From Raineyella sp. LH-20 (GTDB lineage Bacteria; Actinomycetota; Actinomycetes; Propionibacteriales; Propionibacteriaceae), in assembly GCF_033110965.1 (NCBI RefSeq), contig NZ_CP137003.1:372001-436000 (forward strand): a stretch of DNA of 64,000 nucleotides, given 5' to 3'. Positions 2,246 through 8,178 of the stretch are shown one piece after another; position 1 is the first letter of the stretch, and every line of letters begins with the position of its first letter. Under the pieces are notes generated by a model. It was not told the DNA's origin, searched no databases, and was given only the letters and a program-made list of their open reading frames with translations. Position numbers and translations under genes: made by a program.

Positions 2246-3586
2246 TCAGGCGTTGGGGGCCAGCGCGGTTCCGGCGCCCCGGCGGCGGATCGCCGGCGTC
2301 GCCTGGGTGCCCGGCGCGGTCTGGGCCCCCGGGGTGCCCGGCGCGGTCTGGGCTGCCTGCGCGGTCTGGGCGGCCTGACGGGCCTGCCCGGTCTGGGCGG
2401 CTCCGTACGCCGGATCATCCTTTTCCCCGACCGGCACGAAGCCGGCGTCGGCGATCATCTGCAGGTCGGCTGCGCCGGCCTGTCCCTCGGAGGTCAGGTA
2501 GTCGCCGAGGAAGATCGAGTTGGCGACCTCCAGTCCCAGAGGCTGCAGGGAGCGCAGGCTGTCCTCCCGGCCGCCGGCGATCCGGACCTCCGTGTCCGGG
2601 TGCACGAAGCGCACCATGGCGAGGATCCGCAGGCAGTCGAGCGGGGCGAGGGTGTGACTGCCCGCCAGCGGGGTGCCGTCGAAGGGCATCAGGAAGTTGA
2701 CCGGCACCGAGTCCGAGCCGATCCGGCGCAGCGCGAAGGTGACGTCGACCAGTTCCGCGGCGGTCTCTCCCATTCCGGCGATCAGGCCGGAGCAGGCCGA
2801 CAGTCCGGCGCCGTGCGCCCTGCCGACGGTGTCCTCCCGGTCGGCGTACGTGTGGGTGGAGCAGATGTCGTCGTAGTGGGACGCGGCGGTGTTGAGGTTG
2901 TGGTTGTACGCGTCGACGCCGGCCGCGGCGAGCCGCTCCGCCTGGCCCTCCTTGAGCAGCCCGAGGCAGGCGCACACCTCGACATCAGCGTCGGCCTGCC
3001 TCAGCCCGTCGACGATGTCGCCGACCCGGTCGAGATCGCGGTTGGAGGGACTGCGGCCGGAGGAGACCAGGCAGACCCGGCGGGCGCCGGCATCCATCCC
3101 GGCCCGCGCGGCCCGGACCGCCTCGTCGGTGGACAACCAGGGATAGTTGAGCACATCGGCCTCGGAACCGAGCCGCTGCGAGCAGTACCCGCAGTCCTCG
3201 GCGCACCGCCCCGACTTGAGGTTGACCAGGTAGTTGAGCTTGACCGAGTTGCCGAACCAGTGGCGGCGGAGCCGTCCGGCCGCGTGGACCAGGCCGAGCA
3301 CCTCGGCGTCGGGCACACCGAGCAGGGCCACCGCCTCCTCCTCGGTCACCGCTCCCCCAGCCAGCACGCGATCAGCGAGCGCCTCGGGGTCAACCAACCC
3401 CTCGGAATCGGCCGACCCATCGTGAGCGGCGACCCCCTCGGGATCGGCCGACCCATCGTGAGGTGAGGCGCCCTCGGGATCGGCCGACCGATCGTGAGCG
3501 GCGACATCGGTCGACCGATCGTGAGCGGCGACCCCCTCGGGGCCGACGGCCACTCGTTCGGCGGTGGACAGGTCCTGGCTGGCCAT
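2246..3586 (-). CDS. bioB: biotin synthase (radical SAM)
   Basis: Inserts sulfur into dethiobiotin to form biotin, the last step of the pathway, using SAM radicals and iron-sulfur clusters. The radical SAM motif CAEDCGYC gives cysteines 128, 132 and 135, and the family motifs YNHNLNTA and [12 protein letters not shown] follow. At 446 residues it is about 100 longer than usual. The excess is an N-terminal stretch of roughly 65 residues built from a 12-residue repeat ([12 protein letters not shown]-like) and an Ala/Gln/Pro-rich C-terminal tail of about 45 residues. The ATG has a GAGGAG site 5 bases upstream. It is divergent from a TetR-type regulator across a long palindrome, so biotin-responsive control is likely. 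No other biotin pathway gene is in the window. Confidence 0.95.
3404..3542 (-). repeat. in-frame ~36-bp tandem repeat at the 5' end of bioB
   Basis: About four degenerate units sharing CGGCCGACCCATCGTGAG and CGGCGACCCCCTCGG (plus-strand reading). They encode the low-complexity HDxSADPEG repeats before the BioB core, and the period of 36 preserves the reading frame. Confidence 0.75.
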
Positions 3587-3607
3587 GGAATCTCCTCGAA
3601 GGGCATG

Positions 3608-3656
3608 ATCGGACGACTTGAACAGCGTTCACTATACGGTGTTCAAGTCGTCCGAT
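3608..3656. promoter_or_regulatory. BioQ-type operator between bioB and bioQ
   Basis: A near-perfect dyad: arms 3608-3628 and 3636-3656 (21 bp each, one mismatch) around a 7-nt centre; the outer 16 bp of each arm match exactly. It contains TGAACAGCGTTCA (3619-3631), which fits the TGAAC-N3-GTT palindrome reported for BioQ sites in corynebacteria and mycobacteria. On the minus strand TATAGT (3631-3636), a good -10 hexamer for bioB, lies inside the dyad, so a bound regulator would block bioB. The divergent gene has a possible -10 TAGGCT at 3681-3686. Confidence 0.8.
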
Positions 3657-3722
3657 GCGGCGGGTCCGCGGGCGGGCGGCTAGGCTCGGAACCCGGGGTC
3701 GAACAGCCGGGAGTGAGGGTCC

Positions 3723-4280
3723 ATGTCATTGAGCCGGGCGGATGTCCTCGCCAAGGCCGTCGAGATCCTCGACACGTACGGGCTGGCGGACCTGACGATG
3801 CGCCGGCTGGCGACCGCCCTGCACGTCCAGCCGGGCGCCCTCTACTGGCACTACGCCAACAAACAGGAACTGCTCGCTGCCGTCACCGACCACATCCTCG
3901 CCGGGGTCTGCACCCCCGGGCCCGACGATCCCTGGCAACAGGCCCTGCTCGACTGGTCGGTGTCGCTGCGCGCTACCTTGCTGACCCATCGCGACGGGGC
4001 CGACCTCACCTCGTCGGCGCTGGCGCTGAGCCTGGGCACGCTGCGCCCGCAGGAGCCCCTCGTACGCCTGCTGACCGCAGCCGGCCTGGACACCGCCGAT
4101 GCCGAGGCGATCGGCGAGACGGCCCTCCATCTCACCCTCGGGCTGACCCTCAACGAGCAGTCACGCACCCAGGCGGCGGCCCTCGGGGTGATCGACGGGC
4201 CGGCACCGGACGACGGGAATCGGTTGGAACTGGGCATCGACCTGCTGGCGCGGGGCGTGAGCGCGCGGTTCGGGATCTGA
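3723..4280 (+). CDS. bioQ: TetR-family regulator, probable biotin repressor BioQ
   Basis: 185 residues with an N-terminal TetR helix-turn-helix (about residues 5-50: LTMRRLATALHVQPGALYWH, then YANKQELL), followed by a helical effector domain. The LHVQPGALYWH stretch and length agree with mycobacterial and corynebacterial BioQ. It is divergent from bioB, and the shared spacer holds a long palindrome containing a BioQ-like box. The inferred role is repression of bioB, and possibly of its own gene, with biotin status sensed indirectly. The ATG is preceded by GTGAGGG. The family assignment is clear; the BioQ identity rests on context plus the operator. Confidence 0.8.
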   Translation: MSLSRADVLAKAVEILDTYGLADLTMRRLATALHVQPGALYWHYANKQELLAAVTDHILAGVCTPGPDDPWQQALLDWSVSLRATLLTHRDGADLTSSALALSLGTLRPQEPLVRLLTAAGLDTADAEAIGETALHLTLGLTLNEQSRTQAAALGVIDGPAPDDGNRLELGIDLLARGVSARFGI

Positions 4281-4392: not shown

Positions 4393-4502
4393 CGGCGTAC
4401 ACGTCGGCGAGGCTCGGCGTACACATCGGCGAGGCTCGGCGTACACGTCGGCGAGGCTCGGCGTACACATCGGCGAGGCTCGGCGTACACGTCGGCGAGG
4501 CT
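4393..4502. repeat. 5 x 22-bp tandem repeat
   Basis: Five back-to-back units of CGGCGTACACRTCGGCGAGG plus CT, with G and A alternating strictly at the R position (G, A, G, A, G). The alternation suggests that a 44-bp dimer was duplicated. There are no spacers, so it is not a CRISPR array. It lies between the convergent bioQ and nuclease genes. Confidence 0.9.
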
Positions 4503-4614
4503 CGGCCCGAGCACGGCCGCTCGCACTCGAGGCGGCCGGCCAGCGAACCACTCCTCCCGCGCCATGCTTCACCAGGCCCCGCGCGCCACTCGCGCACTAC
4601 TTGCGCGCAAGAAG

Positions 4615-8110: not shown

Positions 8111-8114
8111 TCCG

Positions 8115-8162
8115 CCGAAGGGCTCCGCTGCCGTACGTACGCACGGCAGCGGAGCCCTTCGG
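8115..8162 (-). terminator. rplK-rplA terminator hairpin
   Basis: Perfect 20-bp inverted repeat, CCGAAGGGCTCCGCTGCCGT (8115-8134) with 8143-8162, 8-nt loop, 50 bases past the rplA stop. No U-tract. Confidence 0.8.
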
Positions 8163-8178
8163 GATGGTTCCTGGAGAG

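Follow-up and report, generated by a model that had tools for sequence, protein, structure and literature searches.

BioQ, a TetR-family regulator, belongs to the closest described counterpart of the system analyzed here. In the published account of the actinobacterial BioQ regulon (M. smegmatis and C. glutamicum, with predicted members in Propionibacterium and others), a predicted TGAAC-N3-GTTCA box lies upstream of bio genes, and bioQ clusters with bioB in several actinobacterial genera (PMC3398298). A further point of comparison is DarR, a TetR-family protein that binds overlapping palindromes as a dimer of dimers; as described in PMC10636190, the pseudo-palindrome on which its second dimer sits has only one good half-site. 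DarR is a different family member with a different motif, and it acts on one 20-bp operator with contacts between the dimers (PMC10636190).

The locus of Raineyella sp. LH-20 was analyzed within a 64-kb window (the whole stretch of 64,000 nucleotides, to which all coordinates refer unless stated). It shares with the BioQ regulon both the TetR regulator beside bioB and the TGAAC-N3-GTTCA box upstream of bio genes, but differs in that two boxes abut, the second box shares its inner half with the presumed bioB -10 element, and an accidental-looking 49-bp dyad is present. With DarR it shares a second site having a single good half-site, whereas the predicted BioQ boxes abut at this locus and are spaced by 14–21 bp where paired. 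Our main reading, to which we assign a probability of about 0.78, is that the bioB-bioQ spacer carries a BioQ operator of two abutting boxes placed over the probable bioB -10, and that the outer 11 bp on each side are probably not part of the operator and, at least at the far end, likely arose by template switching.

The divergent bioB gene (2246-3586, minus strand) was identified as biotin synthase by TIGR00433 (374 bits against a cut-off of 225), and the open reading frame at 3723-4280 (plus strand) encodes a TetR-family protein of 185 aa. A phmmer search of this product against the PDB returned 5yek, 5xs9, and 5yej as the top three matches (E ~1e-38), followed by 3bqy (2.9e-22); according to their PDB titles, 5xs9 is M. 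smegmatis BioQ and 5yek is BioQ. Among solved structures, the protein is thus closest by sequence to BioQ of Mycobacterium smegmatis, and we refer to it as predicted BioQ. The sequence match has to carry the weight of this assignment, since the AF2 model was poor (mean pLDDT 71, below 50 in parts of the DNA-binding domain, rmsd to 5xs9 9.8 Å). NCBIfam matched eight families to the protein, none above its cut-off, and no BioQ model was among the matches; this is the absence of a name, not a contradiction of BioQ identity. The protein is 73% identical to one from Raineyella antarctica, and homologues were present in three further genomes of the genus, at 93, 81, and 73% identity. The gene adjoins bioB in the window, and bioB linkage was found in 19 of 82 family loci. 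Two repetitive stretches were seen nearby. The 5' part of bioB (3405-3540) contains repeated units around CCCTCGGGATCGGCCGACCCATCGTGAG that encode a repetitive N-terminal extension, and bioB matches in two of three relatives begin only at residue 65; downstream of bioQ, a unit resembling GGCGTACACGTCGGCGAGGCTC was seen by eye to recur in tandem (4395-4510).

An inverted-repeat search located the 49-bp dyad at 3608-3656, in the spacer separating bioB from the TetR gene. Its arms (3608-3628 and 3636-3656) are 21 nt each with a 7-nt loop and an axis at 3632, and 20 of 21 positions (95%) are complementary, leaving one mismatch. The geometry given in the initial annotation was therefore confirmed, as was the perfect BioQ box that it had placed inside the dyad (TGAACAGCGTTCA, 3619-3631). 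The dyad exceeds the expectation from shuffled sequence: 20 dinucleotide-preserving shuffles of the window averaged 0.05 axes at arm length 16 and had none at arm length 18. It is not unique in the window, where three dyads combined arms of 21 nt or more with no more than one mismatch and a loop of up to 12 nt (2180-2233, 3608-3656, and 8114-8163). The first lies just downstream of bioB and the third between the genes for ribosomal proteins L1 and L10 (frames read by eye), and each may be a terminator or a leader. The 16-nt half-dyad occurred in the whole genome only at the two arms of 3608-3656, all other sites having at least two mismatches, and a mobile or repeated element was ruled out on this ground.

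Alignment of the spacers of four Raineyella species on their common core revealed that conservation is concentrated in a smaller unit. The 29-bp operator core TTGAAC-N17-GTTCAA (3618-3646) was identical at 26 of 29 positions, and its ungapped flanks were identical at 0 of 30 positions on the left and 6 of 30 on the right. The core consists of TTGAAC, two variable bases, CGTTCACTATACGG, one variable base, and GTTCAA. It holds two boxes on the plus strand: box 1, the perfect TGAAC-AGC-GTTCA at 3619-3631, which was also recovered in the genome box scan, and box 2, TATAC-GGT-GTTCA (TATACGGTGTTCA, 3633-3645), found by a scan allowing mismatches. These boxes abut with a centre-to-centre distance of 14 bp. 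Box 2 has two mismatches out of ten, both in its inner half, while its outer half-site is intact, with GTTCAA identical in all four species. Two adjacent sites in a DarR-like arrangement are thus found, the second with two mismatches. With box 1 palindromic and box 2 retaining half a palindrome, the two boxes alone make a 29-bp dyad, and comparison with relatives reduces the striking 49 bp to these 29, the remainder probably being neutral symmetry around a functional core.

The initial annotation had the dyad overlapping the bioB -10. Read from 3636 to 3631, the minus strand gives the hexamer TATAGT, which corresponds to the inner half of box 2 plus the base pairs preceding that half, lies within CACTATACGG, and is identical in the four species; from its sequence and this invariance it is probably the bioB -10. 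A strict sigma-70 scan of both strands over 3560-3740 found no promoter, so that the proposed overlap was supported by the conserved hexamer and not by the scan. The suggestion of a dual promoter-operator found no clear support. The candidate bioQ -10, TAGGCT (3681-3686, plus strand, read by eye), lies 35 bp beyond the core and reads TAGTCT in one relative, and as the strict scan gave no sigma-70-like site, the dual promoter was dropped.

Pairing of boxes was then evaluated across the family. A search for BioQ homologues at E <= 1e-30 yielded 83 stretches, distributed over 82 of the 198 genomes of the family, and 82 stretches were studied after one that starts at the first base of its contig, with no upstream DNA, had been dropped (G061); another (L060) included only 240 bp of upstream DNA. 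An exact box was present within 320 bp upstream in 30 of the 82 loci, which are related, so that the counts are not independent. It occurred in all 19 bioB-linked loci compared with 11 of the 63 without bioB nearby; the 52 loci in which no exact box was found in this interval probably include some other TetR proteins. When up to two mismatches were allowed, a second box was found in 23 of the 30 box-bearing loci (14 of them exact), again related and not independent, and in 17 of the 19 bioB-linked loci. With up to three mismatches, the count was 24 of 30, whereas random positions within these loci would give 2.8. The 23 pairs were spaced by 14 bp (five loci), 15 bp (five), 16 bp (five), 17 bp (seven), and 21 bp (one), and this variation from 14 to 21 bp argues against one fixed cooperative geometry or dimer contact.

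Given the two boxes that abut in the conserved core and the recurrence of such pairs in the family, a site for more than one predicted BioQ dimer within the 29-bp core is plausible, and the second DarR dimer, seated on a site with one good half, makes double occupancy plausible here as well. The multi-dimer binding proposed in the initial annotation is thus reasonable for the core, with its abutting boxes and the pairs in 23 of 30 box-bearing family loci, but not for the outer arms, whose symmetry is not shared by the other three Raineyella species. With its two inner-half mismatches, box 2 may nevertheless stay unoccupied; BioQ would then bind 3619-3631 as a single dimer, and the second half-site would be owed to conservation of the bioB promoter and to chance. 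The promoter alone can account for the conservation of CACTATACGG, and seven of the 30 box-bearing loci had no second box at up to two mismatches. This reading is nonetheless unlikely: all four species share an unchanged outer half-site, GTTCAA, although it lies upstream of the presumed -10, and second boxes in the family are far above chance. An RNA hairpin or terminator in place of a DNA operator would fit the long, near-perfect arms, and the two other long dyads of the window do adjoin gene ends. We consider it highly improbable, as the flanking genes diverge, so that a transcript of either, presumed to begin within the dyad or past it, would include no more than one arm, conservation lies in the paired boxes rather than in the stem, and a scan for terminator-like sites at the dyad found none.

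The outer arms gave a different picture. Beyond the outer edges of the boxes, the symmetric run is 11 bp here. It ranges from 0 to 6 bp in the other 29 operators with a box, and left flanks paired with the right flanks of different operators (870 combinations) never gave more than 6 bp. Such length would favor a function for the whole 49 bp, with the outer arms offering extra contacts or sites for more BioQ dimers or another regulator. So would the recurrence of GACGAC one base ahead of TGAAC on both outer sides here and at both bioA boxes, which speaks for some outer-arm function and against a template switch. Yet in the other three Raineyella operators the symmetric run beyond the boxes is 1–2 bp, and over 54 boxes the information in the flanks does not exceed 0.33 bit per position at -1/-2 or 0.21 bit further out, so that no general extension of the operator is visible. 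The outer arms contained no TGAAC-like half-site, and the absence of such a half-site and of conservation ruled them out as further BioQ boxes. As the full half-dyad is also confined to this one site in the genome, we regard a functional 49-bp unit as quite unlikely, even more so than the single-dimer reading. The claim that the entire symmetry is the operator was not borne out; the outer 11 bp per side are probably lineage-specific and unlikely to belong to it.

The preferred reading, a two-box operator with added outer symmetry, requires an origin for that symmetry. According to PMC8794818, template switching at quasipalindromes copies sequence as its reverse complement and can thereby lengthen inverted repeats or make them more perfect; the event proposed for this locus, by comparison, is inferred from four species that include no closer relatives. 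The outer left arm (3608-3618) is symmetric in this genome only, and its outermost part resembles a copy of the right arm. The outer right arm (3646-3656), read inwards from further out, shares CGCATCG with the closest species (G003), whose left flank has no such match in the four-species comparison. On the left, CGAC is common to another relative (G002), so that only about 6–7 outer bp require an event. The simplest account of the four species compared is a template switch in which the right arm served as the source of the outermost 6–7 bp of the left arm. As for GACGAC, an inverted duplication could explain two of its occurrences and a tandem duplication another two.

In the proposed mechanism, the perfect palindrome of box 1 would hold one BioQ dimer and box 2 a second, weaker one. 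At sufficient biotin supply, the predicted signal, the dimer on box 2 would cover the bioB -10 and block RNA polymerase from the bioB start. A template switch that rewrote the left flank with the right arm as its model would account for the outer symmetry, or at least its outermost part. A more speculative extension, which we offer tentatively and rate below even odds, is that BioQ of Propionibacteriaceae acts as a pair of dimers, that in Raineyella the second dimer occupies a hybrid element in which the bioB -10 has taken the place of the inner half-site, setting repressor and polymerase in competition for the same bases, and that the outer symmetry stems from a template switch seeded by the operator itself. 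If the template switch is true, palindromic operators may lengthen their own symmetry, and dyad length would then mislead on operator size. In other respects this is a predicted BioQ operator of known type; only the extra outer symmetry is unusual, and it may be a species-specific copying accident.

Scanning of the complete genome (3.63 Mb, single contig) revealed six exact sites of TGAACNNNGTTCA, compared with none for the backwards-read control. Five of these lie at bioB, bioY, bioA (two sites), and an AMP-ligase gene, and the sixth (L002) is unrelated and has a different centre. One-mismatch boxes numbered 31, against 10 in the control, and included a second box 18 bp from the exact box upstream of bioY (Pfam BioY). 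Upstream of bioA, which is followed by a bioD match, the two exact boxes are 21 bp apart; the remaining box precedes the gene of a 350-aa AMP-binding protein and, after it, a thiolase gene. The boxes at bioB, bioY, and the AMP-ligase were present in all four Raineyella genomes (control counts 0, 0, 2, and 0), and the bioA box in the one genome having bioA. The possibility, raised as a refutation of the initial annotation, that the motif might be absent from other biotin loci was thereby refuted, and its assignment of a BioQ-type operator is upheld by the BioQ structures closest to the TetR protein and by the boxes upstream of bioY, bioA-bioD, and the AMP-ligase. These positions place a paired-box BioQ operator with a small predicted regulon (bioB, bioY, bioA-bioD, and AMP-ligase/thiolase) in Raineyella.

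Several features of the other regulon loci were also recorded. At E <= 1e-60, the three other Raineyella genomes gave no bioA match; the bioA-bioD operon with its two boxes 21 bp apart (L136, positions 3237397-3239386 of the LH-20 contig) may have been gained here or lost there. A bioF-like match elsewhere in the genome was below its family cut-off. A similar grouping of bioY, ligase, and thiolase stands under BirA in Bacillus, and the ligase/thiolase sites possibly tie a fatty-acid or pimelate step to biotin supply. The frames concerned are L004 (425-1477, minus strand) and L138 (2671-3855, minus strand) for the short, box-linked AMP-binding protein and the thiolase after it, and L003 (814-1452, minus strand) and L137 (2857-3945, minus strand) for bioY and the thiolase-like frame that follows it, coordinates being those of the respective loci.
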